DNA of 64,000 bases, taken from the NCBI RefSeq assembly GCF_013407165.1, contig NZ_CP026994.1, forward strand, positions 1,516,187 through 1,580,186, in the 5' to 3' direction. Position numbers and translations under genes: made by a program. Under the pieces are notes generated by a model. It searched no databases, was not told where the DNA came from, and saw only the letters and a program-made list of their open reading frames with translations. This document shows, in pieces, positions 8,182-24,013 of this stretch. Position 1 is the stretch's first letter; each line of letters opens with the position of its first letter. The stretch comes from Nitrosopumilus oxyclinae. Lineage in GTDB: Archaea > Thermoproteota > Nitrososphaeria > Nitrososphaerales > Nitrosopumilaceae.

Positions 8182-8310
8182 ACGATGATATCACCTATTT
8201 TTGATTTATTCTGGTAGCTCTAAGGAGCTTTAAGATTAGATCAAAACTTTTACACAATTTATTGTGATTTTTTCCCTCTCAGGTTAAATGCAAATTTTCA
8301 AAAACTAGTC

Positions 8311-8760
8311 ATGAAATCTTCAAAAAAAGCAGGCATAGTTGTTTTGTTTGTATTAGGCATGAGTATTTTTGGATATTCACAATATGCATCTGCTTCACAG
8401 ATCGGAGTAAGCATTAGTCAAAGTGAATTATTAAATGAAAACGATAAAGGCTCAAACTATAATATTGAATTGCAATTTGAAAATCCTTCATTGTTGATAT
8501 TAACTGCAGGAGAAACAGAATTCTTTCTAATTTCAAACGATGAAATTATTGGAAAAGGTAATCTTGAATCATTTACTTTACAGCCATTAGGTAGTAGTTT
8601 TGTAAAGGGAACATTTCATACAGATATTAATTCTGATGAATCTCATTCAGTGAAAATTTCAGGAGTAATAAAATACGATCTACTAGTTACATCAATAGAT
8701 GTTCCATTTGTATACTATCCAACAGAAGAACAAGCAAGAGAATTTATACATCAAAATTAA
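8311..8760 (+). CDS. Exported LEA14-like protein, function unknown
   Basis: A 149-aa protein with a signal peptide or anchor at residues 7-29 (KAGIVVLFVLGMSIFGYSQY, then ASAS). The body has the LEA type 2 pattern: alternating strands, IELQFENPSLLILTAGETEF with the conserved ENP, and a C-terminal SIDVPFVY strand. It resembles the protein at 2361-2855 in design. The gap to the PfkB kinase gene is only 11 nt, so they are probably co-transcribed. Role unknown. Confidence 0.6.
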   Translation: MKSSKKAGIVVLFVLGMSIFGYSQYASASQIGVSISQSELLNENDKGSNYNIELQFENPSLLILTAGETEFFLISNDEIIGKGNLESFTLQPLGSSFVKGTFHTDINSDESHSVKISGVIKYDLLVTSIDVPFVYYPTEEQAREFIHQN

Positions 8761-8771
8761 TTTCTCATTAT

Positions 8772-9665
8772 ATGCTTACTGTTTTTGGATCTACAGCACT
8801 AGATACCATTAGAACTCCAAAAAAAACATTAAAAAATGTTTTAGGTGGGGCAGCTACATTTGCAGCAATTTCAGCTAGTAATTTTGTAGATACAGGTCTA
8901 ATTGCAGTAGTTGGAAAAGATTTTCCCAAAGAACATCATAAAATTTTATCAAAACATCTTGATTTACAAGGATTGACTATCAAAAAAGGAAAAACATTTC
9001 GTTACGATGGAAAATACGATAATACACTTAGTACAAGATCAACATTAAAAACAGAATTAAATGTGTTAGCGGATTTTAAAGCAACTGTACCTGAAGCGTA
9101 TAAAAAATCTCAATTTGTATATCTTGCAAATAATGATCCAGAACAAAACACTTCTCTAATTAAAGAGTTTGATAATGTTAAATTTTCCATGTGTGATACA
9201 ATAGACTTTTGGATTTCTACTAAACGTGAGGCAGTAATTAAAATGATCAAAGCAGTTGATGCTGTTGTAATTAATGATGAAGAAGCTAAACTCCTAACAA
9301 AAGAATTCAATTTAATTAAATGTGCAAAAAAAATGATGCAATGGGGAGCAAAATATGTCATCATTAAGAAAGGGGAGCATGGTTCTTTGATGTTTTATGA
9401 TGATGTAATTTTTCCAACTGCAGGATTCTCTCTAGAAGATGTTGTAGATCCTACAGGTGCAGGGGATTCATTTGCAGGTGCAATGATTGGATACCTTGCA
9501 AGTAAAAAATCTACAAAGATATCTGATATCAAAAAGGCTGTAATTTATGGAAATGTTTTAGGATCATTTGCTGTAGAGAAATATGGTCTTGATGGATTAT
9601 TAAAAATAAAAAATGGCGATATTGAAAAACGTATCAAGACATATGAAAAAATGATTCGATTCTAA
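8772..9665 (+). CDS. PfkB-family sugar/nucleoside kinase
   Basis: A 297-aa ribokinase-fold kinase. GGAATFAAISA near residues 26-36 is the first PfkB signature and DPTGAGDSFAGAMIGYLA near 223-240 the second, containing the catalytic aspartate (GAGD). The TxKxGxxG-like VIIKKGEHGS lies at about 196-205. The phosphorylated substrate cannot be read from sequence. It is the last core-type gene before the repeat-rich left end of the element. Confidence 0.88.
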   Translation: MLTVFGSTALDTIRTPKKTLKNVLGGAATFAAISASNFVDTGLIAVVGKDFPKEHHKILSKHLDLQGLTIKKGKTFRYDGKYDNTLSTRSTLKTELNVLADFKATVPEAYKKSQFVYLANNDPEQNTSLIKEFDNVKFSMCDTIDFWISTKREAVIKMIKAVDAVVINDEEAKLLTKEFNLIKCAKKMMQWGAKYVIIKKGEHGSLMFYDDVIFPTAGFSLEDVVDPTGAGDSFAGAMIGYLASKKSTKISDIKKAVIYGNVLGSFAVEKYGLDGLLKIKNGDIEKRIKTYEKMIRF

Positions 9666-9695
9666 AATTAAGCTTTCCCTCTTTTTACGCATAAC

Positions 9696-9728
9696 ATCTG
9701 ACAAAAAGTGTCAGATAGAGTGTCAGAT
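9696..9728. repeat. TGTCAGAT repeat cluster at the left end of the element
   Basis: Three copies of TGTCAGAT within 33 bp. ATCTGACA (9696-9703) and TGTCAGAT (9709-9716) form an inverted repeat with a 5-nt spacer. The third copy (9721-9728) repeats AGTGTCAGAT with a 12-bp offset. The same word, inverted, occurs at 19005-19014 by the integrase gene. Recombinase arm sites or a repressor operator are both possible. Confidence 0.7.
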
Positions 9729-9755
9729 TGTATAATTTCTAACAATAAACAATAC

Positions 9756-9930
9756 TGTAGGCACTACAATCTCTACACATTATTTTTCTACACGTTATAG
9801 TCGATAAACTAAATTTCCAAAAGTGTAGGCATTACAAATTCTACATTCTCTACATCTGCCCCTACACTGTCTCTACATTCTCTACAACATGCTTTGCAGT
9901 GCCTACACAATTGTTTTTGTAGTGCCTACA
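9756..9930. repeat. Four 13-bp near-palindromes TGTAGGCACTACA plus CTCTACA runs
   Basis: TGTAGGCACTACA at 9756-9768 and TGTAGGCATTACA at 9824-9836 are followed by the reverse-complement form at 9895-9907 (TGCAGTGCCTACA) and 9918-9930 (TGTAGTGCCTACA). Between and after them, CTACA recurs many times, often as TTCTCTACA, up to about 9965. This fills the roughly 335-bp non-coding stretch 9666-10000. Iteron-like replication or partition sites, or multiple protein-binding sites, would look like this. Confidence 0.7.
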
Positions 9931-10015
9931 TTCTCTACTGGAAAAGGTCTTGTTAATCTCTACATTGTAATTCATTAGAATTCCTTATCAATCTAATAAT
10001 TTGGAATTAGTTGTA

Positions 10016-10687
10016 ATGAAAAGTGTAAACGTCCTCTTTGTGATTAGTACTATTCTTGTCCCGTTACTTTTAATTTCATTAAACTATGGAGCCATTTCTG
10101 ATTTTTACTCTTACTCTGTTCCTCTGAACAGCCTTGTAGTTGACATTTATACATTCACTGATGATCCTGACAAATTTCAGAAAACACTGGACAAGAAAGA
10201 TTCCACCTGCTTTACAACTTTGAATGACAATTTCTTTTGCTATGAATACCCGCGAGTTTATGAGGATTCTGCCATATCCTATGTTCGAGGAGTTTCGGGA
10301 ATTGATGGTGAGTTGCACTTTGATCCTATTGAGAAAGGCGTATCCTATTTTACAATGAAGAACATGACAGTGATTTCAGGTGATACTGCACTTGTAACAC
10401 TTGCAGACAAGGATTATCGAGTTGGAAACTCTGAAAGAACAGATTATGAGATTACTGATGACTTTGAGTTCTCTGCTGTCTTGGAAAAATTTGATGTGTT
10501 TATTGCAAAATGCAATAACTATGAGGGGACAAGTGTAACTCTGGTACAGTATCTTGGCGTGGTTACTCTGGAGGACAAAGATTACTTTGCAACATGGCAT
10601 ACTCCTGCATCATCAAATGTCGGTGTTGCGTGCAACTACCCCGAGATCATAGAGCATAGCATGAAACATGACTTTGGAGATATGTAA
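10016..10687 (+). CDS. Exported or membrane-anchored protein of unknown function (element cargo)
   Basis: From the ATG at 10016 the product is 223 aa (a TTG at 10001 is also in frame). Residues about 4-24 form a hydrophobic signal/anchor (VLFVISTILVPLLLISLNYG). The rest is an extracellular domain with four or five cysteines (CFTTL, FFCYEY, KCNNY, ACNY), which could form disulfides. No family recognised. The next ORF starts 2 nt after its stop, so they form a pair. Codon choice is less A/T-biased than in neighbouring core genes. Confidence 0.6.
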   Translation: MKSVNVLFVISTILVPLLLISLNYGAISDFYSYSVPLNSLVVDIYTFTDDPDKFQKTLDKKDSTCFTTLNDNFFCYEYPRVYEDSAISYVRGVSGIDGELHFDPIEKGVSYFTMKNMTVISGDTALVTLADKDYRVGNSERTDYEITDDFEFSAVLEKFDVFIAKCNNYEGTSVTLVQYLGVVTLEDKDYFATWHTPASSNVGVACNYPEIIEHSMKHDFGDM

Positions 10688-10688
10688 A

Positions 10689-10856
10689 ATGAAAACAATT
10701 TATCTAATCTCAGTTGTCTTGGTTCTGATATTTGGAGGCCTGTGGGTGATTGTGGGCGGTGCTGCAAATACAATACTGTGCACATATTTTTGGACTATCG
10801 CTATACCTGACCAAGAAGTCTTCATGTTTCCTGATTTTGAGAATTGTGGTAGATAA
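10689..10856 (+). CDS. 55-aa single-pass membrane protein
   Basis: Starting at ATG 10689, directly after the stop of the preceding gene, the product opens MKTIYLISVVLVLIFGGLWV, a long hydrophobic helix, and ends in a short tail with two cysteines (one at ILC, one at ENC). The tight spacing argues for co-expression with the 223-aa exported protein. It could be a partner or lipoprotein-like small protein. The frame is open upstream into the previous gene, but the ATG at 10689 is the natural start. Confidence 0.5.
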   Translation: MKTIYLISVVLVLIFGGLWVIVGGAANTILCTYFWTIAIPDQEVFMFPDFENCGR

Positions 10857-10865
10857 AAATGAAAA

Positions 10866-11858
10866 CTAGACTTTTGACAATTCCTTTACCGCCTGTCTAT
10901 GTGATCCATCAGGATTAATCAAAAAATTCCAACTGTCAAAATCATCTGTATAGTTCTTGTAACCATATCTCCAAACCATACAACCTGAATATCCTAAATC
11001 TTTTGAATTTTTGAGGAATGCTTTGATTGTCTTTTTTTGTAAATTTTCATTATTATCTTGAGATTCTTGTCCACATTCACCAATTATGCATGGTTTTGAT
11101 AGTCCTAATTCTTGGTATGATGGTAAATTTCCTGCATCATTATATCTGTGAAAATCAAAAAAGTCAATTGATTGTTCTATCTCTTCTTTGAATTTCTTTA
11201 CTGTGTTGCTTTCCTGAAATCCACATGATACTCTGTGTCCTGTCTTTTGTTTTATCTGAGTACATGCATCATTGATGTACTGAATGATTTGAGGCCAATG
11301 GATATTTGTAGATACACTTCTGTCATTGAATATTTTTTCATGCTCTATTCCTTCTGGCTCATTAATTACATCTACTGCCCAAACTGATTTTTTTATTATC
11401 TCATCATTTAGCAATTCAATAACTGCATCAAGAAAGGTCTGGCGTTTTTGCTGAGTTGTTATAATTCCATTAATCATATCTGCATAATGTTCTCTGAATT
11501 GTTTTACACCCTCATCTGTAATTGCCCATGTATCCATAAGACAAAAATAAAATTTCACATCATACTTTTGTGCAATGGTACATGCATCACGCAAGTTATG
11601 CCAAAAGTCAGTTGTAATTCCCAAAACAGTTCCAATTGGACCAAATGACAGCCCCTCAAATCTCTCAAAGAGCCATAATCTTACCACTTTGACTCCCATC
11701 TCTGAAATGTCCTTGATTATTTCCTCAAATTCTTTTGAATTATACGCTACTGGGATATGGTCTCCATTGTCATGGTCTCTAGTTGAGTTTGTTCCAAAGT
11801 CATGATCATACTGTGTTCCTACCCATGCAAGATTGATTCCTACTGTAAATTCTGTCAT
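10866..11858 (-). CDS. GH5-like TIM-barrel glycoside hydrolase
   Basis: A 330-aa protein with the layout of clan GH-A cellulase/mannanase-type enzymes. GINLAWVGTQYDHDFG opens the barrel, VKVVRLWLFERFEG is the strand-2 region, VINEPEG at about residues 164-170 holds the acid/base glutamate, and IGECGQES near 257-264 the nucleophile glutamate. No signal peptide is visible, so it may be cytoplasmic or handled by the membrane proteins encoded upstream. It is the last gene of a four-gene operon and overlaps the preceding gene by 4 bp. Substrate unknown. Confidence 0.75.
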   Translation of the reverse strand: MTEFTVGINLAWVGTQYDHDFGTNSTRDHDNGDHIPVAYNSKEFEEIIKDISEMGVKVVRLWLFERFEGLSFGPIGTVLGITTDFWHNLRDACTIAQKYDVKFYFCLMDTWAITDEGVKQFREHYADMINGIITTQQKRQTFLDAVIELLNDEIIKKSVWAVDVINEPEGIEHEKIFNDRSVSTNIHWPQIIQYINDACTQIKQKTGHRVSCGFQESNTVKKFKEEIEQSIDFFDFHRYNDAGNLPSYQELGLSKPCIIGECGQESQDNNENLQKKTIKAFLKNSKDLGYSGCMVWRYGYKNYTDDFDSWNFLINPDGSHRQAVKELSKV

Positions 11859-12259
11859 GTTACCATCACATATGCCAAAAATATTACCAGTATTGCAAAA
11901 ATAACTACTCCTATCTGAGTGCTTTCCTTAAAGTGCTTAGAGCCATATGCAAACGGATGACCCATAGTGACTTCTCCCCTGTGTGTCTCTACTATCTGTC
12001 TCCATTCAGCAATGATGAATCCAAATCCTGCACCAACAAGGGCTGACCATACAATTGATAGTGGTATGGAGAATTCTTTTGATACAAAAATTAATGCAAT
12101 TGCAACTATGATGAGTTCCAGTCCAAAATGATAGTGCTCGTGGTTTACAAGTACTCCTTTCTCATATTTGCTAAATGATGGCTTTACCCACCAATACGTG
12201 TCTAGAAGAAATGATCCAAAAGCACCAATAACAAAGAAGATTAAATCAAACTCTTGCAA
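11855..12259 (-). CDS. Four-helix membrane protein of unknown function
   Basis: A 134-aa membrane protein with four hydrophobic segments (about residues 5-25, 47-62, 66-85 and 112-132). The loops carry several histidines (HEHYHFG near 40-46, plus HPFAYGSKHF near 100), a pattern that could bind metal. The stop overlaps the start of the GH5-like gene (ATGA), and the CBS gene ends 2 nt upstream, so it is translationally coupled on both sides. No known family recognised. Confidence 0.6.
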   Translation of the reverse strand: MQEFDLIFFVIGAFGSFLLDTYWWVKPSFSKYEKGVLVNHEHYHFGLELIIVAIALIFVSKEFSIPLSIVWSALVGAGFGFIIAEWRQIVETHRGEVTMGHPFAYGSKHFKESTQIGVVIFAILVIFLAYVMVT

Positions 12260-12261
12260 TT

Positions 12262-12684
12262 CTAGTCTACCATTTCTTCAATGGCATCTTTTAGTTTGTT
12301 TTTGTTAATAATTCCATGATACTTTCCATCCTTGTCTACCAAAACCAAATTATCTATCTTATTAGCAATAATGAAATCTAAAACTTTTCTTACGTTGTCA
12401 TCTACTTTGATTGGATTGTAATGTATTCGTGTTTGAATATCTTTAATTAGATTAGATGTATTCAAAGTAATTTCATTTGATAAAATGTGAGTAATATCTG
12501 ATTTTGATACCACTTGAACAACCTTGTCATTTTGATCCTTAATTGCAAGAACTCCATACTTGTTATCCAAACTTTTTCCAGCTTCTGCTATTTTGATACT
12601 ATTTGGAACAGTAATGTCTGTCTTGTCAATGATATGATCTAATATCTTTCCAACAGTTTTTTCTTCGAATTTATTTAGTCTCAT
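12262..12684 (-). CDS. CBS-domain pair protein
   Basis: A 140-aa protein formed by two CBS motifs: TDITVPNSIKIAEAGKSLDN to about residue 70, and IHYNPIKVDDNVRKVLDFII to the end, with the second ending NLVLVDKDGKYHGIINKNKL-like. Such pairs bind adenosyl ligands and regulate partner proteins. It sits between two membrane-protein genes in a tight operon (4-bp overlap upstream, 2-nt gap downstream), so it may gate or sense for them. Confidence 0.8.
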   Translation of the reverse strand: MRLNKFEEKTVGKILDHIIDKTDITVPNSIKIAEAGKSLDNKYGVLAIKDQNDKVVQVVSKSDITHILSNEITLNTSNLIKDIQTRIHYNPIKVDDNVRKVLDFIIANKIDNLVLVDKDGKYHGIINKNKLKDAIEEMVD

Positions 12685-13100
12685 TTATCCCACTCTAACC
12701 TTTTCAAGATGTCTTCTTTTTCACTTGATGGTTCTGTCTTAGAAGTGTATTGAGCAACAAGTAATGGCCATGTAATTCCCAACACAAATGACTGGATTGG
12801 AATAAAGTTTGGCAGTTCAGGTATCTGAAATACCGTGGCCACTGCACCTCCTATCATTGCATATCCAAATGCACGTCCATAACCCAATTCCTGAAATTTT
12901 TTGTTTTGATTAAACTTGATGAAACCTAGTTTTGAGGCAACAAGATATGCTGTAGATCCTACTATTCCCATAATCACTGAACCTATAATTGCAGACAGAT
13001 TATTGGTATTTTGTATAAACCATTCATCAATCAACGTTGAGAAAATATTGGTTTGCAGAAAAATATTTGAGAGATAAAAAAATGTATGTTCAATTGGCAT
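12681..13100 (-). CDS. Membrane protein of unknown function, first gene of GH5-like operon
   Basis: A 139-aa protein with hydrophobic stretches at about residues 35-57, 75-92 and 100-116 and a charged C-terminal tail (SSEKEDILKRLEWDK). It is the first gene of the operon 13100-10866. A TTAATAATATG element about 25-30 nt upstream of the ATG would fit a leaderless promoter. The stop overlaps the CBS gene start by 4 bp. No family recognised. Confidence 0.55.
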   Translation of the reverse strand: MPIEHTFFYLSNIFLQTNIFSTLIDEWFIQNTNNLSAIIGSVIMGIVGSTAYLVASKLGFIKFNQNKKFQELGYGRAFGYAMIGGAVATVFQIPELPNFIPIQSFVLGITWPLLVAQYTSKTEPSSEKEDILKRLEWDK

Positions 13101-13171
13101 GTTGTTATATTCATATTTTCATATTATTAAGAGTCCTGCACAAATGTTTTAAGATATAACAGTATGAATAT

Positions 13172-13181
13172 CGTAATTACG
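13172..13181. promoter_or_regulatory. Palindrome CGTAATTACG in divergent intergenic region
   Basis: A perfect 10-bp palindrome between the GH5-like operon (minus) and the nuclease gene (plus). It is a possible operator for either, but a short palindrome in A/T-rich DNA may be chance. Confidence 0.25.
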
Positions 13182-13236
13182 CTTGTTCATAAAATCTAAA
13201 GTCATACTTAACTAGTAATACTATATTCCAAGAAAT

Positions 13237-14196
13237 ATGTTACATGAGAACATTGATGCCCAAACTGCAAAGGGAATTAAGGAACTGCGAAATAGAATCA
13301 AGGTTCCATCCTCCGTTGTTGATGAGAAAATAAATATTGCAACTTGGAACATTCGCGCCTTTGGAAAAAAGAAAAGAGACAAGGCATCAATTCATTACAT
13401 TGCTGAAGTATTATCCAATTTTGATCTAATTGCAATTACAGAACTTGCAGAAAACCTCAACGATCTAAAAAGAGTCATAGATGTTTTGGGGCCTTACTGG
13501 AAGGTTGTATTTTCAGACATTGCAATGGATAGAGGAGGAAATTCTGAGAGAATTGGTTATCTATATGACAAGAGAGTAGTTACATTCACTGGATTGGCAG
13601 CAGAAGCCGACCCATTTAGAAAAAAGAACAAAAAGACTGGAGAGTACGAGCCTGAGATTACTTGGTGGAGAAGCCCTTACTTGGCATCATTTCGTGCAGG
13701 ACGATTTGACTTTGTACTGCTAACTGCTCATATCCGATGGGGCAAAGGTGCAATTGACAGGTATGATCCCCTATTGCAACTTGCAGAATGGGTTGAGAAA
13801 AGACGCAAGTCAAAACATGTTGTAGACAAGGATATCATTGTAATGGGCGACTTTAACATCCCAAATGAAAAAAGCCCCCTCTATGATGCAATTACAACCT
13901 ATAATCTCCAAATGCCAAAATCCTTGCTAGGAAAACACGGGACAAATCTTGCAAAAAAGAAAAGATATGATCAAATTCTGTATTACAAGCGTCACACAAA
14001 AAACATCAATGATGAAGGTGGTGTAGTTGACTTTTACAAAAAGGATTTCAGGAAACTATATCCTAAAAAGAAATTCCCTGACATGGATAAAGAGTCATTC
14101 ACATATGAAATGTCTGACCATCTTCCTTTGTGGATTCAGCTGGATATCTGGACTGATGATGAGGAACTTGATCAGCTGATTCGAAAAAAATCCTAA
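13237..14196 (+). CDS. Endonuclease/exonuclease/phosphatase (DNase I-fold) family protein
   Basis: A 319-aa EEP-superfamily protein. The catalytic stations are in order: INIATWNIRAFG (Asn38), ITELAE (metal-binding Glu69), LLTAHIRWG (His in the centre), VMGDFNIPN (Asp/Asn near 205-207) and the terminal SDHLPLW (Asp-His near 294-295). It lacks a signal peptide and therefore likely acts in the cell as a nuclease. It lies in the element, divergent from the GH5-like operon. DNA, RNA or phospholipid substrates all occur in the superfamily. Confidence 0.87.
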   Translation: MLHENIDAQTAKGIKELRNRIKVPSSVVDEKINIATWNIRAFGKKKRDKASIHYIAEVLSNFDLIAITELAENLNDLKRVIDVLGPYWKVVFSDIAMDRGGNSERIGYLYDKRVVTFTGLAAEADPFRKKNKKTGEYEPEITWWRSPYLASFRAGRFDFVLLTAHIRWGKGAIDRYDPLLQLAEWVEKRRKSKHVVDKDIIVMGDFNIPNEKSPLYDAITTYNLQMPKSLLGKHGTNLAKKKRYDQILYYKRHTKNINDEGGVVDFYKKDFRKLYPKKKFPDMDKESFTYEMSDHLPLWIQLDIWTDDEELDQLIRKKS

Positions 14197-14242
14197 AATC
14201 TTCTGCTATACAGTTATTAGTATATGATTCTCATACAATATC

Positions 14243-14548
14243 ATGGGATTTCCATGGCTTGTTCTTTTAGCAATAGCCGCAGCTGCTGCAATACTTGTTG
14301 CAATTATTGCACTGTTTGGTTCTGGCTCTACTGGAACCATGCCACAGCAAGTCCAAGATGAGATTCGAGATACTTTATCTACATTGCAAAGCCCAAATGA
14401 TTCTGATTTTTGTTCTAATCTTGATGGTCACAAATTAAGATTGCAGACTTATCTTAACACACTAAGCAGTCTTACTAATGCACAAAAGGATACGATTCGT
14501 GACACAATAGAACAAATTGATAAAGCCAAAACGGCAGCAGACTGTTAA
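14243..14548 (+). CDS. 101-aa single-pass membrane protein
   Basis: An N-terminal hydrophobic segment (WLVLLAIAAAAAILVAIIAL, residues 5-24) is followed by a soluble helical domain of about 70 residues with two cysteines (FCSN and the terminal AADC) that may pair. Starts 46 nt after the EEP nuclease gene and may share its transcript. No family recognised. Confidence 0.5.
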   Translation: MGFPWLVLLAIAAAAAILVAIIALFGSGSTGTMPQQVQDEIRDTLSTLQSPNDSDFCSNLDGHKLRLQTYLNTLSSLTNAQKDTIRDTIEQIDKAKTAADC

Positions 14549-14573
14549 AAATAAAACTCTAACTTTCGAGATG

Positions 14574-14600
14574 GATCATTGATCTGAATGAATCATTCAT
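14574..14600. promoter_or_regulatory. Two adjacent palindromes, possible operator
   Basis: GATCATTGATC (14574-14584) and ATGAATCATTCAT (14588-14600) are odd-length perfect palindromes separated by 3 nt. They lie upstream of the OLD-like gene and its TATA element, at a distance compatible with regulation of that transcript. Confidence 0.35.
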
Positions 14601-14633
14601 GAATGTTATAAACAGAATTGACTATACCATACC

Positions 14634-14699
14634 ATGTCACAAAATGAATCATGGGAAGAATTACTTGGATTGTCATGGGTTATCATTGATGATGAATAG
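14634..14699 (+). CDS. Possible 21-aa leader peptide
   Basis: A tiny ORF, MSQNESWEELLGLSWVIIDD plus Glu, stops 87 nt before the preferred start of the OLD-like gene. The sequence is plausible as a peptide but far too short to be sure. It could be a leader ORF or chance. Confidence 0.2.
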   Translation: MSQNESWEELLGLSWVIIDDE

Positions 14700-14757
14700 T
14701 TAGTTGGAAAAGAGATTATTTTCCATATAATGTGGAAATACTACAACGGTGTTTATC

Positions 14758-14767
14758 TTTATAAAAG
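14758..14767 (+). promoter_or_regulatory. TATA element of the OLD-like gene
   Basis: TTTATAAAAG centred about 25 nt before the ATG at 14787 fits a leaderless archaeal promoter. It falls inside the longer open frame from 14730, arguing that translation begins at 14787. Confidence 0.5.
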
Positions 14768-14786
14768 TCTCCCAAAATATGAATAT

Positions 14787-16574
14787 ATGAAATTAGAATA
14801 CAAAAATGATTTTCATTCCATTAAACAGTTCACTTCTACAGAATTGCCTGATTTTTCAATTTTAACCGGCGTTAATGGATCAGGCAAAACTCATCTTCTA
14901 AAAGCAATTCAAAATGGTGATGTTGTAATAGATTCTATTGAAGACGTAAACGATATAATTTATTTTGATTATATGGAATTTAGAGTAAGTAATGAACCTG
15001 AGCAGAATAGCTTTCAATTAAGACAAGAGCAAAAGGCTACTTGGGATCTACTTGACTCTCAAAATATTCCCCGATTTGGAACTTTAAAAAATAATTTGTT
15101 AAGTATAAAATCATCTATTTTTCCTATGACTGCCGACTCAGAAAAAATTTCTGAAATTGCTAAAACAAAAAATAAACCATTGTTATCATTAACTAAAAAA
15201 GATCTTGATGATGTAACATATGAAAAAATAAGTAATTATAAAAAAAGATTAAAACAAATTTTTTCTCACCCTGAGTTACTAAAACATGGTGGGACTTTAC
15301 CTACAATAGTATTTGTTTCAAAAAAATTTAATTCATTTTTAGATGAAATAACTTATGTTGAATTTACTAAATTATTTGAGCCTATTCATCTCAAGGAAAA
15401 TCTTTTACCTATTGAAATTGGTAAAATATTTCTAAAATATAGAATGAGTGAATTTCAGGAATGCTCTGCTAATTTACAAAAAATTAATGGAAATACTACT
15501 GAAATTAAAAAAAGAGCTGAAGAAAAATGCATGGAGCGTTATAATGGACAAAAACCATGGGAGGTAGTTAATTCATTTCTTAGTACATTTAGTAATTTTG
15601 ATTACAAACTTTCATTTCCTGAAGAATTAGATTTGTCCACTTATTCTAATCAGGATGGGCCTCTTTTCACACCTATGCTGTTAGATAAAAAACGTGACTT
15701 GGCAATTCCATATAATCAATTATCTTCTGGCGAACAAATTCTGTTTTCACTAGCCCTATGTTTATTCAAAAGTAAATCTGATAATATGTTTCCAAAACTA
15801 TTATTGCTTGATGAAATTGATGCTACACTTCATCCAAGTATGATTGAAAATCTTTTCAATGTGATTAATGAAGTATTTTTAAAAAATGGAACTAAGGTGA
15901 TATTATCTACTCACTCTCCTACAACAATTGCACTATCTGATGAAAATTCTGTTTTTGTTGTAAATAAAGATGGAGAAAATAAAATTGAAAAAAGTACTAA
16001 AAAAAATGCATTACATATTTTAACTGAGGGATTTGCAACCTTGGAAGAAGGATTACATTTAGCTGATCAATTAAGTAACAAAGAACTAGTTATCATTACT
16101 GAAGGAAAAAATGTACAATATATTAAAAAAACAATGGAATTTTTTGCAAATGACTTAATCGATAACGTAGATGTTCTTGAAGGTATTGAAGATATCACTG
16201 GAAAAGGGCAACTAAAATTATTTTGGGATTTGTTTTCATCTATTCCACATACTAACAAACTACTATTTGTTTGGGATCCTGATGTTGAAAATTATCGTAA
16301 TCTTGAAACCAAAAATAAAACATATGCTTATACATTTTTAAAAAATATATCAAATAACTTGTGTGACAAAGGAATTGAAAATCTGTTTTCAATTGAAATG
16401 TTTGATGGCTTTACTAAAACAATTACTGATGATGCAACTCAGGAAACAATTATTGAATTTAATGCTAAAAAATACAAAAATGATTTTCTTGATAGAATGA
16501 TGTTAAAAGGAGAAATTGAATTTCAGAATTTTAAACCTTTGTTTGACCACGTACGAACAATTCTTAATACTTAA
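14787..16574 (+). CDS. OLD-family-like ATPase with C-terminal TOPRIM nuclease domain
   Basis: About 595 aa from ATG 14787 (the frame extends to 14730; the internal TATA favours 14787). An ABC-type ATPase comes first: Walker A GVNGSGKTH at about residues 28-36, signature LSSGEQ near 312, Walker B LLLLDEIDATLH near 340, and switch histidine STHSPTT near 374. A TOPRIM-type domain follows: VIITEGKN near 435 supplies the acidic residue and LFVWDPDVEN near 494 the DxD. This order matches overcoming-lysogenisation-defect (OLD) nucleases, several of which act in phage defence. A membrane-protein gene follows 35 nt downstream. No UvrD-like GajB partner is encoded nearby. Confidence 0.82.
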   Translation: MKLEYKNDFHSIKQFTSTELPDFSILTGVNGSGKTHLLKAIQNGDVVIDSIEDVNDIIYFDYMEFRVSNEPEQNSFQLRQEQKATWDLLDSQNIPRFGTLKNNLLSIKSSIFPMTADSEKISEIAKTKNKPLLSLTKKDLDDVTYEKISNYKKRLKQIFSHPELLKHGGTLPTIVFVSKKFNSFLDEITYVEFTKLFEPIHLKENLLPIEIGKIFLKYRMSEFQECSANLQKINGNTTEIKKRAEEKCMERYNGQKPWEVVNSFLSTFSNFDYKLSFPEELDLSTYSNQDGPLFTPMLLDKKRDLAIPYNQLSSGEQILFSLALCLFKSKSDNMFPKLLLLDEIDATLHPSMIENLFNVINEVFLKNGTKVILSTHSPTTIALSDENSVFVVNKDGENKIEKSTKKNALHILTEGFATLEEGLHLADQLSNKELVIITEGKNVQYIKKTMEFFANDLIDNVDVLEGIEDITGKGQLKLFWDLFSSIPHTNKLLFVWDPDVENYRNLETKNKTYAYTFLKNISNNLCDKGIENLFSIEMFDGFTKTITDDATQETIIEFNAKKYKNDFLDRMMLKGEIEFQNFKPLFDHVRTILNT

Positions 16575-16609
16575 AAAATCGGATAATACATGTTTCTATA
16601 ATGTGATTT

Positions 16610-17437
16610 ATGTTGAATATCGATTTACTATTTGATTTTATTTCTGGTTTTGTATTTGCATTAATTGCATCAATGATTTTGTATATAGTGATAAAAACTG
16701 TATTTCCTTCTCCCCCTAGATTCATTCGTCGTCCTATAGATCAAAGAAGAAGGCATATTGAAGAAATAAGATATTCCTTAAAGCATGAATTTGGAGGATT
16801 TCGATATGTTCTACCCATTGTACTTGTTTTTTCAGTTGTAATGTATGCAACAGCAGTTGCAACAAGTACTGGATTTGATAAAAATTCAACATGGTATTCT
16901 TTAGTACTCACAACAGCCGTTGCTATTATCATTGCAATTGTTGTTGATGCTGTAAATAGAAAATCTAATCGTGAAATATTCTCTAGAATTAGAAAAATTG
17001 AAGGTTTAGTTCATGTAAAATTGGATCCAGATAACAATGGTAGAGATTCTGCACGATTCCATATTGGTTTTGCATTAGAAGGAATTTTGTATAATATGGG
17101 TGAATTGGAAAAGGAAATCAAATTATGGCTTAGAGAGGATAATATTGAAGAAAAAGAGATCATTAAGAAGAGATGTAATTATTTATGGAAAAATTCCCTT
17201 TGTCATTATGTTGAAATAATTAATGATTCAAAAAATTCTTCTGTATTGCTTTTTAATTCTGATATTATTAATAGATTAAGACTTATTTCAGAACAATGTA
17301 TAATCGATTTAACATTTGATGATGAACACCATATATGTAGACATATAGGATTTGATTTGATTATTATTCAATCATTATTACTGCTCGATATGTTGAAAAT
17401 TGAGACTAGATATAAGGATCTAATCTATCATGGATAA
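16610..17437 (+). CDS. Three-helix membrane protein with cytosolic domain, neighbour of OLD-like gene
   Basis: A 275-aa protein with hydrophobic helices at about residues 8-30, 66-85 and 96-114. A soluble helical domain of about 160 residues follows, with Cys and His (CRHIGFD near 246). It starts 35 nt after the OLD-like gene and shares its strong A/T bias. A membrane partner next to a nuclease ATPase would be compatible with an abortive-infection design, but the domain is not one I recognise. Confidence 0.55.
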   Translation: MLNIDLLFDFISGFVFALIASMILYIVIKTVFPSPPRFIRRPIDQRRRHIEEIRYSLKHEFGGFRYVLPIVLVFSVVMYATAVATSTGFDKNSTWYSLVLTTAVAIIIAIVVDAVNRKSNREIFSRIRKIEGLVHVKLDPDNNGRDSARFHIGFALEGILYNMGELEKEIKLWLREDNIEEKEIIKKRCNYLWKNSLCHYVEIINDSKNSSVLLFNSDIINRLRLISEQCIIDLTFDDEHHICRHIGFDLIIIQSLLLLDMLKIETRYKDLIYHG

Positions 17438-17479
17438 ACTTGGAACGCAATCATTTCCAATATTTTGGAGGTCTAAGAA

Positions 17480-17692
17480 ATGATTAGATCTATAGGTGTT
17501 ATTGGACTTCTGTTGAATTTATGGTCATTGATTACTTTATTTTCTATTCTTGGTCTGATATCACCAGATTTCAATTCTATTTCTATTGGTTCTATACTTT
17601 TTAGAAATATTTCTGATGGGTCTAATCTTTTATTGGGATTAATTGTATTTATTATTGGTTCAATAATGATCTACAAAACATTTGGACGTTAA
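17480..17692 (+). CDS. 70-aa two-helix membrane protein
   Basis: Two hydrophobic segments (residues about 5-28 and 48-65) separated by a short polar loop. The gene starts 42 nt after the preceding membrane-protein gene, with a GGAGG sequence (17467-17471) about 8 nt before its ATG that could act as a Shine-Dalgarno site. This spacing suggests a three-gene unit with the OLD-like ATPase. Function unknown. Confidence 0.5.
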   Translation: MIRSIGVIGLLLNLWSLITLFSILGLISPDFNSISIGSILFRNISDGSNLLLGLIVFIIGSIMIYKTFGR

Positions 17693-17700
17693 TTTTAGTA

Positions 17701-18921
17701 TTATTCTATAATTTCAAGAATTTTCTCTGGAGGAATTTGACCGTAACTTTTCTTCAATTCGTCCATGTTGTTCCATCCTCCGATCTCTGCAATTAATCCA
17801 TAATTGTAATCTGTTTTTGATAACCAGTAATGTGCACCAATATGGCGTAATGCATGTGTTGGGTGATGTTGAAAATAGGATGCTTGTTTTCCCAAGTGTT
17901 TGTAAATTTGTTTTAGATAATATGAGATATTTTTTGTAAACTTGTATTTTATGATATTATTTTCGTGAATTCTTTGTCCTCCTCTACTTTTTAGTAAATC
18001 CAAACTTGTCTGAGTATCTTTTCTGCTGATATACTTTAACCACTTTCCACCTCGAATATGATCAGTCTTTGTTTCGATTGCAGTCATTAGGTAAGTTGTA
18101 TTCCCTGATTTTTTAGAAACTGATTCTGTATATTCTAGTGGCATGTTGTATAATGCATCAAATCTTGCACAAGACTCTATTCCAACCCAGAACCAGCGGT
18201 AAACATCTGAATCCAATCCCCACTTTTCCTTGATGTATTCATCTGCTCTTTGTAATTCATCATCTGTTAGTCTGATGTCGCTGTACTTGCCATGCCCTAG
18301 AACTTTTTGTGACATAATACCCGTAACTCCTTTCTGCCAGAAGAGATTGTAAAACATACAAAAGTCTCTGACTGCTTGGACTCGCGCGTATATTCCTGTG
18401 TTTAGTCCAGTTGGTTTTGAGCCGCTCTTTGACTGGATTGCATTTCCTGACGTATAGAATTTGGCAAAGGTTCGCATAATTTTTTCAGTTCTCCTGTGAG
18501 ATACTATGAGATCTTGGGGTTCTATCTTGCAGGTATTGCATACTGTCTCAAGACAGCATATTCTTCTGTCCCAGTTCTTGAGCGGACTTCCTCCCTTTCT
18601 TGTTAATAGATCATCAATCCATTCTGTGACTAGCGGGTCTCCTGTAATTAGATGGTTCTTGTTAAACTGGCGGAACTTTGTATCCTCGGGAAGTTTTGGT
18701 AAGACTAGCCTGTCTTTAGTTTTGAGAATCTTTGATTCTCCTTTCATCTTTTTTACGTATCTGTATATTGTATCCCTTGACACTCCGAGGACTTTGGCAG
18801 TCTCCGTTACTGTTAGTGGATATGGTCTGGTACCTGTACCGTGTAACAGATTGTAGATTTCATTTGTTATTTGATCTTCTGTTGCTCTTTTCTTTTGTAG
18901 TCTTATGTGAGGTCTGCTCAA
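17701..18921 (-). CDS. Tyrosine recombinase/integrase with N-terminal HTH
   Basis: A 406-aa site-specific recombinase. Near residues 38-60 an HTH motif reads LTVTETAKVLGVSRDTIYRY, then a SAM-like core-binding region with a CCLETVCNTC cysteine group. The catalytic domain shows ARFDAL (first Arg, about residue 253), HALRHIG (HxxR, about 355-358), a GGWNN turn and the nucleophile in SYGQ (about 392). It lies at the right end of the element and reads inward, as integrases often do. The less A/T-rich codon use differs from its downstream neighbours. The gene appears intact. Confidence 0.88.
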   Translation of the reverse strand: MSRPHIRLQKKRATEDQITNEIYNLLHGTGTRPYPLTVTETAKVLGVSRDTIYRYVKKMKGESKILKTKDRLVLPKLPEDTKFRQFNKNHLITGDPLVTEWIDDLLTRKGGSPLKNWDRRICCLETVCNTCKIEPQDLIVSHRRTEKIMRTFAKFYTSGNAIQSKSGSKPTGLNTGIYARVQAVRDFCMFYNLFWQKGVTGIMSQKVLGHGKYSDIRLTDDELQRADEYIKEKWGLDSDVYRWFWVGIESCARFDALYNMPLEYTESVSKKSGNTTYLMTAIETKTDHIRGGKWLKYISRKDTQTSLDLLKSRGGQRIHENNIIKYKFTKNISYYLKQIYKHLGKQASYFQHHPTHALRHIGAHYWLSKTDYNYGLIAEIGGWNNMDELKKSYGQIPPEKILEIIE

Positions 18922-18988
18922 AAATATTTTCCTCCAAAAAGAAGGTCATACCAAAAATATTTTGAAAGTTTTTTTGATGTAAAGAATA

Positions 18989-19015
18989 GATATGATGGTT
19001 TCATATCTGACACTT
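18989..19015. repeat. Right-end hairpin and inverted copy of TGTCAGAT repeat
   Basis: GATATGA (18989-18995) and TCATATC (19001-19007) form a 7-bp inverted repeat with a 5-nt loop. It overlaps TATCTGACACTT (19004-19015), the reverse complement of 9706-9717. The site lies between the integrase start and the next gene, so it could be an operator or a recombinase-binding end. Confidence 0.6.
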
Positions 19016-19067
19016 GAACATCTTCTAAAAAGACTTAAGTTCAATTATTTCTCAAATTTATTTATCA

Positions 19068-19409
19068 TTGTCAGAAGAAAAAGATCGACTAGAGACAATA
19101 TTCAAACTTCAAAAAGGACTATCAAGTATGATGAAACTGGATAGATATCCAAAAGATTCTGAAGGAAGAATTTCTGCTTTATGTACTGCCATAATGCATG
19201 AGGCTGTAGAACTACAAAGAACAACAAACTGGAAATGGTGGAAAACTCCTGTAGAATTTGATGAAGCCGAAGCAAGGGAAGAATTAATTGATATTTGGCA
19301 TTTTGTTGTGCAGGCTTCTCTCGAACTAAAACTTACACCTGATGATATTTTAGATGAATACAAAAAGAAAAATGAAATCAATCGTGAAAGACAAAGAACA
19401 GGTTATTAA
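19068..19409 (+). CDS. All-alpha NTP pyrophosphatase (dUTPase/MazG-like)
   Basis: A 113-aa helical protein starting with TTG at 19068. It contains HEAVELQRTTNWKWWK (about residues 42-57) and REELIDIWHFVVQ (about 68-80), the ExxE...ExxD metal-binding pattern of all-alpha dUTPase/MazG-type enzymes that hydrolyse noncanonical or excess nucleoside triphosphates. The LQ-TNWKWWK element resembles dimeric dUTPases. It flanks the right end of the element and could belong to either side. The start codon is inferred from frame and length. Confidence 0.75.
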   Translation: MSEEKDRLETIFKLQKGLSSMMKLDRYPKDSEGRISALCTAIMHEAVELQRTTNWKWWKTPVEFDEAEAREELIDIWHFVVQASLELKLTPDDILDEYKKKNEINRERQRTGY

Positions 19410-19413
19410 AAAA

Positions 19414-19881
19414 TTAGAATTTTTTAAAAATTACTTCAGTTTCAGTTACATTAATCAAATTTACAAGTTTTACATTATCTTGAAAATATTTTATTTCTGA
19501 TTTTGAAACGGTGAGAAATGGATCTGGACTAGATGAATTAATTATTCTATTATTTTGATCAGTTCCATTTTTATGAAGTTGAAATAATGAATGACCTGAT
19601 TTATGTCCCCAAACATCTTTGCCACATACAATTATGGTATTGACTTTGTGATTTTTGTTTACATATTTTATAATAGAATCAATTCCTTTGTTTTCAGAAA
19701 GTAATCTCCCCACAATTGATATTTTGTTTAGCATTTCAGAATTTGCAATATTTTTGAGCAAATCCATGCTTGAAAGAGTACAAATTGCTATCTTAGAATC
19801 AGGATTTCCAAGATAAAATTCTTCATTAATAGGTAAAATGACTTTACAAAGTTCTCCAATTGCCTCACCAATTACATTCAC
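19414..19881 (-). CDS. MtrA-like (tetrahydromethanopterin S-methyltransferase subunit A family) protein
   Basis: A 155-aa protein whose pattern follows the soluble domain of MtrA, the corrinoid-carrying subunit of the methanogen methyltransferase. GNPDSKIAICTL is at residues 25-36, LSENKGIDSIIKYV near 61-74, and VCGKDVWGHKSGHSLFQLHK at about 85-104, keeping the histidine that in MtrA contacts cobalt. It lacks the C-terminal membrane helix and no other mtr subunits are present. It overlaps the upstream DegT aminotransferase gene by 4 bp. A B12-dependent or structural role is possible; methanogenesis is not implied. Confidence 0.7.
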   Translation of the reverse strand: MNVIGEAIGELCKVILPINEEFYLGNPDSKIAICTLSSMDLLKNIANSEMLNKISIVGRLLSENKGIDSIIKYVNKNHKVNTIIVCGKDVWGHKSGHSLFQLHKNGTDQNNRIINSSSPDPFLTVSKSEIKYFQDNVKLVNLINVTETEVIFKKF

Positions 19882-20963
19882 AATATTTCACGCATTGTTT
19901 TAGCAATAAATTCAATATTTTTCTGAGTTACATTTGGATGGATTGGTAAAGATAGTACATGTGAAGCTGCCCAATCAGTAACAGGCAATTTTGTTTTGAG
20001 TTTGTAAAATGGTGTTTTATGTACAGGTGTAGGATAGTAGGATGCTGCACCAATTCCTTTATCATTTAATTTTTTTAATAGTTTATCACGTTTATCAGTT
20101 GAAATTGTATATAGATACCAATTTACATTTTCATTTTTTCTTTCTTTTGGTAAAACAAGATCAAGATCAGAAATTAATTTTGTTAAACGTTGAGAATTAT
20201 TTTTTCTAGATTTTAAAAATTTAGGAAGTTTTTTTATTTGTACAGTTGCTATTGCTGCATTTATTTCTGGCAATCTTAAATTTAGACCAAACACTCGAGT
20301 ATCATAACCATGAACCATTCCATGATTTCTAATCATTAGCAGTTTATCTCTGAGATTTTTATTATTAGTTACAACAAAACCGCCTTCTCCTGCAGTCATT
20401 ACTTTAGCAGGATACATACTGTAACATCCCATTTCAAAGAAAGTTCCAGTGTGTTTTCCTTTGTAAGTAGAACCTAATGATTGTGCAGAATCTTCTATGA
20501 TAGGGATATTATGTTTTTTAGATATTTCAGAAAGTCTTTCAATATTTGCTACATTTCCATACAGATGAACTGGGATTATTGCTCGTGTTCTTTTTGTAAT
20601 TTTTTTTATTAAATCATCAGGATCTATAGTATAATTTTCTTTTAAGATATCAACAAAAACTGGTTTTGCTCCAGTTGCAACTACTGCATTTGCAGTTGCT
20701 ACAAATGTAAATGATGGGAGTAAAACTTCATCTCCTTTTTTAATATCCAATGCATAAAGTGCGGCCTGTAATGCTGCAGTACCAGAATTTACTGCAATGG
20801 CATATTTTGATTTTACAAAAGATGCCACAGATTTTTCAAATTCCTGAACATGTTTTCCGCCTAAATTAGCAGCAGATGTTAAAGCTCCATTTTTAAGAAT
20901 TGACGTGACTACATCTATCTCTTCTTTACCCACAATAGGAATGTTAATTGCAATTTTCAACAA
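19878..20963 (-). CDS. DegT/DnrJ/EryC1/StrS-family aminotransferase
   Basis: A 361-aa PLP-dependent sugar aminotransferase-like protein. SGTAALQAALYALDI (about residues 60-74) is the cofactor-phosphate region, FVDI then EDSAQSLGSTYKGKHTG the substrate region, and MYPAKVMTAGEGG near 183-195 carries the PLP lysine. The family aminates keto-sugars for surface polysaccharides. No glycosyltransferases lie adjacent here; instead it is coupled by a 4-bp overlap to the MtrA-like gene, an unexpected pairing. Confidence 0.88.
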   Translation of the reverse strand: MLKIAINIPIVGKEEIDVVTSILKNGALTSAANLGGKHVQEFEKSVASFVKSKYAIAVNSGTAALQAALYALDIKKGDEVLLPSFTFVATANAVVATGAKPVFVDILKENYTIDPDDLIKKITKRTRAIIPVHLYGNVANIERLSEISKKHNIPIIEDSAQSLGSTYKGKHTGTFFEMGCYSMYPAKVMTAGEGGFVVTNNKNLRDKLLMIRNHGMVHGYDTRVFGLNLRLPEINAAIATVQIKKLPKFLKSRKNNSQRLTKLISDLDLVLPKERKNENVNWYLYTISTDKRDKLLKKLNDKGIGAASYYPTPVHKTPFYKLKTKLPVTDWAASHVLSLPIHPNVTQKNIEFIAKTMREIL

Positions 20964-21042
20964 TATTCTTGTTTATAACTAGTCTATAAATCTCAGCAAA
21001 GAAACATGAATTTTTATATTTCAAAATTTGGCAAACGGCATC

Positions 21043-21618
21043 ATGAAGCCACGTCATCTTGAAAAAACAGATCCAGGCTACAAAGTATATCTATACATTT
21101 TCTATATCTGCGGAATCATAATGACATCATCATTAGTTTTCGGAGTATATGTCACCACAATAGAATGGCTGGAAAATGGAACATATGTTATGGGAGAAGT
21201 AATTCACAATACAACCATACCATTTGAAAATTTTGCAAGAGTAACTACTTGGATATTTTTCTCTACAATAATTGGATGGTATTGTGTTACAAGAATTGGA
21301 TGGAGAAGAACTGCTGGCGATAAAATTGTCGGTACAAAAATGGCATTACTTCAATTAATGTTATTAGGATTTTCAATAATTTCACTTTATGAAGTATTAT
21401 ACAATTTTACTGTGTTAAATGCACAAATGACTGCAGGTGTTATCAATGGGATGGTTCCAGACATTGATAAATTATCAGTTGCGTATCCAGATCCTGATAG
21501 ACCATGGAATTTAGTATTTGCAACCAAAGTTTTTCTTGCATCATTTATCATTAGTTCCCATGCATTTTATCTCAGTGTAAAACCAAGAAAAAATCTAGAT
21601 GAATCAAAAATTGATTAG
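21043..21618 (+). CDS. Four-helix membrane protein, function unknown
   Basis: A 191-aa membrane protein from the ATG at 21043; TTTTTATATT at 21011-21020 lies about 27 nt upstream, supporting this start over the in-frame TTG at 21028. Hydrophobic helices are at about residues 15-38, 64-84, 101-122 and 158-178. The proline-rich loop DKLSVAYPDPDRPW lies before the last helix. No cofactor motif recognised. It may be part of a lineage-specific membrane complex, but I cannot assign one. Confidence 0.6.
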   Translation: MKPRHLEKTDPGYKVYLYIFYICGIIMTSSLVFGVYVTTIEWLENGTYVMGEVIHNTTIPFENFARVTTWIFFSTIIGWYCVTRIGWRRTAGDKIVGTKMALLQLMLLGFSIISLYEVLYNFTVLNAQMTAGVINGMVPDIDKLSVAYPDPDRPWNLVFATKVFLASFIISSHAFYLSVKPRKNLDESKID

Positions 21619-21665
21619 TTTTTTCTTTACAGAATAATTTTCGAAAAAAACTATATCAACTATGA

Positions 21666-21869
21666 ATGGCTAATTTGTTCATGGGATTATTTGGTTCTAG
21701 TAAAAATGAATTAAAATGTAAAAAATGTGGTACAATCCTTCCAGATTCTGATAGATTAAAGAAACATCAAGAAAAAGCACACAATAAGAAAAAAGAAAAA
21801 TGCAGAGCTTGTGGAGCTGAATTTGATTATTCAGAAGATTTGAGAAAACACAAGAAGAATTGTAAATAA
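21666..21869 (+). CDS. Two-finger C2H2 zinc protein
   Basis: A 67-aa protein with two classic C2H2 fingers: CKKCGTILPDSDRLKKHQEK followed by AH, and CRACGAEFDYSEDLRKHKKN followed by C. The linker is lysine-rich, favouring nucleic-acid binding. The N-terminus MANLFMGLFGSSK is hydrophobic. The gene ends 2 nt from the convergent gene at 21872. Confidence 0.75.
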   Translation: MANLFMGLFGSSKNELKCKKCGTILPDSDRLKKHQEKAHNKKKEKCRACGAEFDYSEDLRKHKKNCK

Positions 21870-21871
21870 AA

Positions 21872-22081
21872 TTATTCAGACAACCCAGATTCATAATTTG
21901 GTTGTCTTTTCAGAGCTTTTTCAATTGCATCTAAATTTTTAATTTCATTTTTAGAATTCATTGATAAAGTATTGATCATTTCTGAGCCTAATTGGACTGA
22001 TTGTTCAGGTAACGTTTCAAGAAATTTTTCAAGGGCTTTTCTATAATTTGAAATTAATTCTAAACCTTCTTCGAGAGTCAT
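21872..22081 (-). CDS. 69-aa helical protein of unknown function
   Basis: A short acidic, probably all-helical protein (MTLEEGLELISNYRKALEKF and onward) without cysteines or membrane segments. It lies between the convergent zinc-finger gene and the divergent tyrosyl-tRNA synthetase gene. Nothing further can be inferred. Confidence 0.5.
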   Translation of the reverse strand: MTLEEGLELISNYRKALEKFLETLPEQSVQLGSEMINTLSMNSKNEIKNLDAIEKALKRQPNYESGLSE

Positions 22082-22175
22082 AAACAGTATGAAAATATCT
22101 TCTATTCAAACCTTCTAGATTGAAACTTGAACTTTGAATAACTTTATACGTTTACTTCTCAAAAGTTGTTTTGAT

Positions 22176-23222
22176 TTGGATATTACAGAAAAAGTAGATT
22201 TGATTCAAAGACCACCAACTGAAGAAATAGTGACACAAGAAGAATTAATTGAACTATTCAAAACTAATTCATCACCAAATCATTACATTGGTTTAGAAAT
22301 TTCTGGTTTCTTGCATCTTGGCAGTCTAATTAGTACAGGTTTTAAAATTAATGATTTCGTAAAAGCTGGTGTAAAATGTAAGATCTTTCTGGCCGATTGG
22401 CATACTCTGATAAATGACAAACTAGGTGGAGATTGGGAAACAATTGCAAAAGTTTCAAAATATTACCAAGATGCTTTCAAATTAGTTTGTCCTGATGCAG
22501 AAATAATTTTAGGATCTAAACTATATGAGGAAAAAACAGAATATTGGTCTGAGCTTGTAAAATTTACAAAACATATGTCAATTGCAAGAACAATGAGAAC
22601 TTTGACTATAATGGGTAGATCAGAGGACGACAAAAAAATTGATGTTGCAAAATTACTATATCCTGCAATGCAAGCAGTTGATATTCATTCTTTAGATGTA
22701 GATATTGCTCATGCTGGAATGGATCAAAGGAAAATCCACATGTTGGTTAGAGAAATATTTCCAAAAATGAAATGGAAAGTACCTGTTGCTGTTCATCATA
22801 AATTATTACCAGGACTTTCAAAACCTGCAGACTCTAGTGATGAGAAAATCGTAGGTAAAATGAGTAAATCTGATCCAAACTCAGGAGTGTTTATTCATAA
22901 TGCTGATGATGAAATAAGGAAAAAAATAAGCAAGGCATGGTGTGAAGAAGCAAATATTGAAAATAATCCATTATTAGAAATTTCAAAATCTGTAATATTT
23001 CATGAATTTAATGAAATGAATGTAGAGAGACCTGAAAAATTTGGTGGAAATGTATCATATATTAATTACAATCAACTGGAAAAAGATTTTGCAGAAAAGA
23101 AATTACATCCTGGAGATTTGAAACAAACAGTTGGAAATTATTTAGTCAAAGTAGTTTCTCCAATCAGAGAAAAATTGAATCTTAGTGAAGAATTGAATGA
23201 TGCAATTAAGAAAAGTTTTTAG
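22176..23222 (+). CDS. tyrS: Tyrosyl-tRNA synthetase (archaeal type)
   Basis: About 348 aa from the TTG at 22176 (MDITEKVDLIQRPPTEEIVT); the frame extends to a TTG at 22134, but CTTTATACG about 30 nt before 22176 favours the shorter form. Class I motifs are present: SGFLHLGSL (HIGH equivalent) and GKMSKSDPNSG (KMSKS). ADWHTLINDKLGG and the helical anticodon-binding end match archaeal TyrRS. It charges tRNA-Tyr. It converges on cbiH with a 4-bp overlap. Confidence 0.92.
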   Translation: MDITEKVDLIQRPPTEEIVTQEELIELFKTNSSPNHYIGLEISGFLHLGSLISTGFKINDFVKAGVKCKIFLADWHTLINDKLGGDWETIAKVSKYYQDAFKLVCPDAEIILGSKLYEEKTEYWSELVKFTKHMSIARTMRTLTIMGRSEDDKKIDVAKLLYPAMQAVDIHSLDVDIAHAGMDQRKIHMLVREIFPKMKWKVPVAVHHKLLPGLSKPADSSDEKIVGKMSKSDPNSGVFIHNADDEIRKKISKAWCEEANIENNPLLEISKSVIFHEFNEMNVERPEKFGGNVSYINYNQLEKDFAEKKLHPGDLKQTVGNYLVKVVSPIREKLNLSEELNDAIKKSF

Positions 23223-24013
23223 ACTTTAAGATTAGGATTTGTTTGTTCTTCTAAATTATATTTTGATTTGTAACCTCTTGGGTTGATCATTAAATCTTTG
23301 TAAGTATAAGTCGATGAATTTCCAACAATTACAGTACTAGTCATGCCTAGTTGATCTGAATGATTGGGTAAATTTTCTAAATCAGTCATTACAATAGATT
23401 CAGATTCTCTATATGCACTTTTGATAATTGCAACTGGTGTAGAAGGTTTTCTATATTTTAAAAGAACTTTTCTTGTATCTTGTAATTGATGAATTCTTTT
23501 TTTACTAGCAGGATTATAAATTACAATTACAAAGTCACCTTGAGCTGCTGCTTCAACTCTTTTTGAAATAACTTCCCATGGAACCAGTAAATCACTCATG
23601 CTAACAACTGCAAAATCAGTCATTAGAGGTGAGCCAATAATTGATGCGCATGAATTAAGTGCAGACACGCCAGGAACAATTTCCACTTGAAGATCATCTT
23701 TTGGATTCCAACCAGATTCAGCAAGTGTTTCATAGATTAATCCTGCCATTCCATAAATTCCTGGATCACCACTTGATACTAGTGAAACAATTTTTCCAGA
23801 TTTAGCAAGATCAATACATTGATGAGCTCTTTCAACTTCTTGTGTCATTGCATAACGATGAACAGTTTTTCCTTCAATAAGATCTTGTACTAAATTAACA
23901 TAAGTTTCATATCCAACAATTGTATTACTCTCACCAATCACTTCTTTTGCTCGAAATGTCATATGGTCATGATGGCCAGGTCCGACACCTACAATGTAGA
24001 GTTTACCAGTCAA
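23219..24013 (-). CDS. cbiH: Precorrin-3B/cobalt-precorrin-3 C17-methyltransferase
   Basis: A 264-aa tetrapyrrole methylase using SAM in corrin-ring synthesis. The family start GKLYIVGVGPGHHDHMTFRA, the VSLVSSGDPGIYGMAGLIYE block near 94-113 and VEIVPGVSALNSCASIIGSP are characteristic of CobJ/CbiH, including the GDPG loop for SAM. With bluB upstream it documents cobalamin biosynthesis; the rest of the pathway is outside the window. Confidence 0.9.
   Translation of the reverse strand: MTGKLYIVGVGPGHHDHMTFRAKEVIGESNTIVGYETYVNLVQDLIEGKTVHRYAMTQEVERAHQCIDLAKSGKIVSLVSSGDPGIYGMAGLIYETLAESGWNPKDDLQVEIVPGVSALNSCASIIGSPLMTDFAVVSMSDLLVPWEVISKRVEAAAQGDFVIVIYNPASKKRIHQLQDTRKVLLKYRKPSTPVAIIKSAYRESESIVMTDLENLPNHSDQLGMTSTVIVGNSSTYTYKDLMINPRGYKSKYNLEEQTNPNLKV

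Follow-up and report, generated by a model that had tools for sequence, protein, structure and literature searches.

We conclude that the OLD-like ATPase–TOPRIM gene of a small integrase-encoding element in the marine ammonia-oxidising archaeon Nitrosopumilus oxyclinae is probably a lone accessory gene with a likely defensive function, and that the two membrane-protein genes behind it are probably neighbouring cargo. The analysis covered a stretch of 64,000 nucleotides (nt), hereafter the window, in which the features collected in Table 1 were located. The ATPase probably belongs to a known and widespread type of lone OLD-like proteins carried by mobile elements, and the locus provides a precisely bounded archaeal example of such a gene on an integrating element. 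Lone OLD proteins are still poorly understood: according to a 2023 review, protection against a phage had been demonstrated for a single class 1 protein, P2 Old (PMC10568477), and anti-phage phenotypes were reported for E. coli ybjD after that review (PMC13261556).

Table 1. Features of the element and of its target gene, in window coordinates
Feature	Position	Strand	Evidence or remark
PfkB-kinase gene	8772-9665		target gene, element at its 3′ end
Integrated mobile element, about 9.37 kb	9660..19030	.	empty sites in congeneric genomes
Left attachment core TTCTAAAA, 8 bp, holds the PfkB-kinase stop codon	9660..9667	+	found once in the sister genomes
TATA-like sequence in the CTTTATAA region, would serve a leaderless start at 14787	14757..14764	+	archaeal promoter knowledge
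OLD-like ABC-ATPase with C-terminal TOPRIM, 595 aa	14787..16574	+	Pfam, PADLOC, motif alignment with 31 relatives
Walker A, GVNGSGKT	14868..14891	+	alignment with relatives
ABC signature LSSGE and Walker B LLLDE	15720..15815	+	alignment with relatives
TOPRIM core: TEG (E439), DPD (D497, D499)	16080..16286	+	aligned columns and low-confidence model
275-aa membrane protein, two or three helices and C-terminal helical domain	16610..17437	+	ORF, membrane prediction
70-aa two-helix protein, preceded by Shine-Dalgarno-like GGAGGT	17480..17692	+	ORF
Tyrosine integrase with N-terminal HTH, right end of element	17701..18921	-	Pfam HTH_17 4e-6, weak Phage_integrase 0.006
Right attachment core TTCTAAAA, 8 bp	19023..19030	+	repeat of left core

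An OLD-like ATPase with a C-terminal TOPRIM domain

The three open reading frames (ORFs) of 595, 275 and 70 amino acids (aa) described in an earlier note on this DNA were all recovered; they share one strand, are separated by gaps of 35 bp and 42 bp, and have a low, coding-like GC3 of 0.15–0.17. For the first of them an in-frame ATG also occurs at 14730, giving a 614-aa reading. We preferred the start at 14787, because the relative in another Nitrosopumilus genome (G139) begins at the equivalent residue and because TTTATA lies 29 nt 5′ of 14787, within the longer reading.

Alignment with 31 relatives revealed intact Walker A, LSSGE, LLLDE and His-loop motifs, conserved throughout the set, and placed E439, D497 and D499 (595-aa numbering) in the E and DxD columns of these relatives. 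Both results bear out the earlier reading of a large OLD-like protein with complete ABC ATPase motifs and a TOPRIM-type DxD. The nearest relative has DPE where the protein here has DPD. Pfam returned AAA_21 (1e-21, far above chance) and AAA_15 (6e-16). The top PADLOC profiles were mad3, AriA and ATPase-Toprim_I-B, with AriAB, PtuA, Old and GajA below these. The best matches in PADLOC are ATPases of PARIS, the type I-B retron, MADS and Septu. No NCBIfam model came near its cut-off, and no profile named the family at a curated cut-off. In a structure model built from three sequences (pLDDT 50), residues 433–495 follow a beta-alpha-beta-alpha-beta order, with the TOPRIM region at pLDDT <50, and a Foldseek search with this model returned ATPase-head matches only, such as the retron I-A PtuA, SMC and Rad50. 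The protein thereby combines the ABC motifs with the C-terminal TOPRIM E and DxD of the OLD family in the broad sense, its TOPRIM fold being modelled at low confidence.

An integrated element at a PfkB-kinase gene

To place the borders of the element, we compared window 8000-24000 with 45 other genomes of the genus Nitrosopumilus, about 40 of which have an uninterrupted site in which window 8000-9667 abuts ~19023-24000. At base level, four empty sites hold one copy of TTCTAAAA as against two in the window, and the PfkB-kinase gene stays whole because the left copy contains its stop codon. HxxR and the terminal Tyr are visible in the integrase sequence. The tyrosine integrase, the flanking att repeats and the empty site in relatives mark out an integrated element, and the earlier placement of the genes on an element was correct. 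Short repeats of TCTACA / GTAGGCACTACA type at window 9750-9960, near the left end, are possibly iterons or integrase arm sites.

Window 10866-13100 is occupied by a block encoding a 330-aa glycoside-hydrolase-like protein, two membrane proteins and a CBS-domain protein. Relatives of this four-gene block to the left of the ATPase occur together in G139 (locus L063) at 45–78% identity, which suggests that the block moves as a unit; they lie on a different contig from the OLD relative of that genome and are accompanied by neither the 275-aa gene nor this integrase. At a contig end in a further genome (G147, L064:6839-7249), an integrase N-terminus is 90% identical to that of the integrase here and the adjoining att region matches too (window 18512-19032), so that G147 may hold a related element.

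Relatives of the ATPase and their neighbours

Within the family, one full-length relative of the ATPase was found, in G139 (34% identity), and a profile search across 398 genomes of the phylum yielded a full-length match in this genome only; the other matches were short, covered the ATPase part only and were discarded. Two narrow pattern scans with a two-row alignment of the ATPase gave one bacterial relative and none, respectively, and a five-row alignment gave 31 loci. A comparable membrane partner is absent from some 30 other relatives, many of which sit on prophage contigs or plasmids. Relatives were recovered from prophage-type contigs and plasmids, and none was found in phage records. 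In Aquimarina, Planktothrix and Rhizobium, the bacterial relatives lack a membrane partner like the 275-aa protein, a rough hydropathy count found a multi-helix gene downstream of the ATPase in 0 of the 31 viral-contig loci, and about 36 ATPase loci share no recurrent partner gene.

Some relatives are accompanied by defence genes. In Aquimarina brevivitae (L054:4476-7986) the gene for the SduA (Shedu) nuclease is followed directly by the OLD-like ATPase, and elsewhere a type I restriction subunit (L073) or TIR-domain proteins (L074) keep company with the ATPase. Because of this company and of the domain order, defence or the exclusion of competing elements is probably the role of the ATPase, and it is the likeliest one that we see.

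DNA maintenance is also a role of TOPRIM and SMC-like ATPases, and an ATPase–TOPRIM protein that serves the element's own replication, maintenance or excision, and not defence, would suit a gene lying close to the integrase. We consider this unlikely, because the pairing is absent from the related block in G139 (L063) and from other relatives, and because relatives reside on unrelated prophages and plasmids and near defence genes, although the archaeal OLD protein Cran1 does act in the cell cycle (PMC12796447).

Two membrane-protein genes without conserved linkage to the ATPase

In the 275-aa protein, membrane stretches were predicted at residues 1–35, 60–89 and 93–117, followed by a C-terminal helical part, and the 70-aa protein has two predicted stretches, in line with its earlier description as a two-helix protein. 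For the 275-aa protein the earlier count of three helices agrees with the three stretches predicted, but the one clear relative of the protein among 250 family genomes, 233 aa long and with 26–28% identity (genome G037), lacks the first helix. Profile searches of the Pfam, PADLOC and NCBIfam type gave no family match for the 275-aa protein, and its model from a single sequence (pLDDT 49, all helical) was unfit for a fold search. A profile search of the 398 phylum genomes gave nothing clear beyond G037, no relatives were found in viral contigs or plasmids, and the 70-aa protein had no convincing relative in the 250 family genomes. In G037 (L066:12165-17972), the relative lies ~4 kb from a Cas1 gene (Pfam 8.5e-55) and adjoins a C-terminal fragment resembling an integrase, perhaps in a casposon or CRISPR neighbourhood.

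The earlier note had combined all three genes into one candidate antiviral system and had proposed a search for homologs of the membrane proteins beside OLD-type genes. That search went against the proposal: in the few genomes that bear on it, the 275-aa gene is seen apart from OLD homologs, an outcome that the earlier note had named as refuting. For the 275-aa homolog in G037, the 20 kb around it gave no match to the ATPase, and none was detected in that genome. The ATPase relative in G139 is followed, 12 bp on, by a gene for a 151-aa one-helix protein that is unrelated to the 275-aa protein and has only one further, weak match in the genus, and G139 has no match to the 275-aa protein in the search of 250 family genomes or in the profile search of 398 phylum genomes. 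Conserved linkage of the ATPase with the membrane genes is therefore not supported on the little data available, which comprise one close relative for each of the two larger genes, and a three-gene antiviral system lacks good evidence, because the membrane genes do not travel with the ATPase elsewhere.

A true two- or three-part system, in which the ATPase–TOPRIM protein would be the sensor and one or both membrane proteins a pore or anchor effector, would explain the shared strand and the short gaps, but, as this locus shows, close packing of genes on an element says little about whether they work jointly. The membrane-anchored gene next to the G139 relative and the membrane-protein gene adjoining class 5 archaeal OLD genes (PMC12796447) point in the same direction. 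We nevertheless judge such a system improbable, because the 275-aa relative occurs without an OLD gene, the G139 membrane gene is unrelated and about 30 other ATPase relatives lack one, the 70-aa gene is without convincing relatives, and SiRe_0087, the membrane-protein neighbour of Cran1, appeared functionally unlinked to it (PMC12796447). Still less probable is a modular sensor–effector defence in which OLD-like ATPases of Nitrososphaeria would work with interchangeable membrane-anchored proteins, the 275-aa one here and the 151-aa one of G139. That the ATPase gene is the inactive relic of a decayed OLD-type gene is likewise highly improbable: the residues after the catalytic Glu read EGKNV as against ES..D in most relatives, but the frame is open over its full length, the ATPase and acidic residues are intact and GC3 is coding-like.

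Proposed mode of action

For a lone, defensive ATPase–TOPRIM protein, the reading that we favour, we infer a nuclease activity and a trigger along the following lines. On the model of OLD, PARIS and retron effectors, the protein would dimerise through its ABC heads, and ATP or bound nucleic acid may keep it inactive. On infection by a virus or a rival element, the TOPRIM domain would be released to cut DNA or tRNA, which would protect the cell and hence the element too; the 275-aa and 70-aa membrane genes would be cargo that happens to lie alongside.

Comparison with known systems

PARIS has in AriA an ATPase of the same AAA_21/AAA_15 type, and the fused AriAB profile aligns to residues 27–528 of the 614-aa reading (8.6e-15); PARIS differs in that no AriB gene lies beside the ATPase here and Pfam gave no DUF4435 match. 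The ATPase–TOPRIM effectors of type I-B retrons have the same domain order (profile match 5.5e-20), but no reverse transcriptase or Rfam-matching RNA was found nearby or in the element. Gabija (OLD class 2) is excluded, as the earlier note had argued, by the lack of a UvrD-like GajB among the neighbouring ORFs.

Archaeal class 5 OLD proteins already offer a case of an OLD gene next to a gene for a membrane protein: Cran1 forms a potential operon with SiRe_0087, a likeness to the arrangement here (PMC12796447). In the search of 398 phylum genomes, which bears on a place in the Sulfolobales U11 clade of class 5, G139 alone gave a full-length match to the ATPase. Cran1, which we set beside the ATPase by its description, is inherited vertically in Sulfolobales, where it is conserved and apparently essential, and had no antiviral effect when tested (PMC12796447), whereas the ATPase here is sporadic and carried by a mobile element. 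That element resembles the cryptic integrated elements described in Thaumarchaeota (PMC6563490) in its tyrosine integrase, its mixed cargo and a short attachment site where a protein-coding gene has its 3′ end. Such 3′ ends are used by 14 of the 68 mapped thaumarchaeal elements (PMC6563490), but the PfkB-kinase target is unlike theirs, and the OLD nucleases of that study lie on casposons whereas the element here has an integrase.

Class 1 OLD proteins are single genes by definition (PMC10568477), and the ATPase here is a single gene with no conserved partner. P2 Old and the Thermus scotoductus OLD (TsOLD, 6p74) likewise unite an ABC ATPase and a C-terminal TOPRIM in one gene, and P2 Old shares with the ATPase its carriage by a mobile element. 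TsOLD gave a profile match of only E = 0.024, and the PtuA and AriA types score better. By its gene context the ATPase thus fits the class 1 description, while its sequence is closer to the AriA, PtuA and retron ATPases than to TsOLD.
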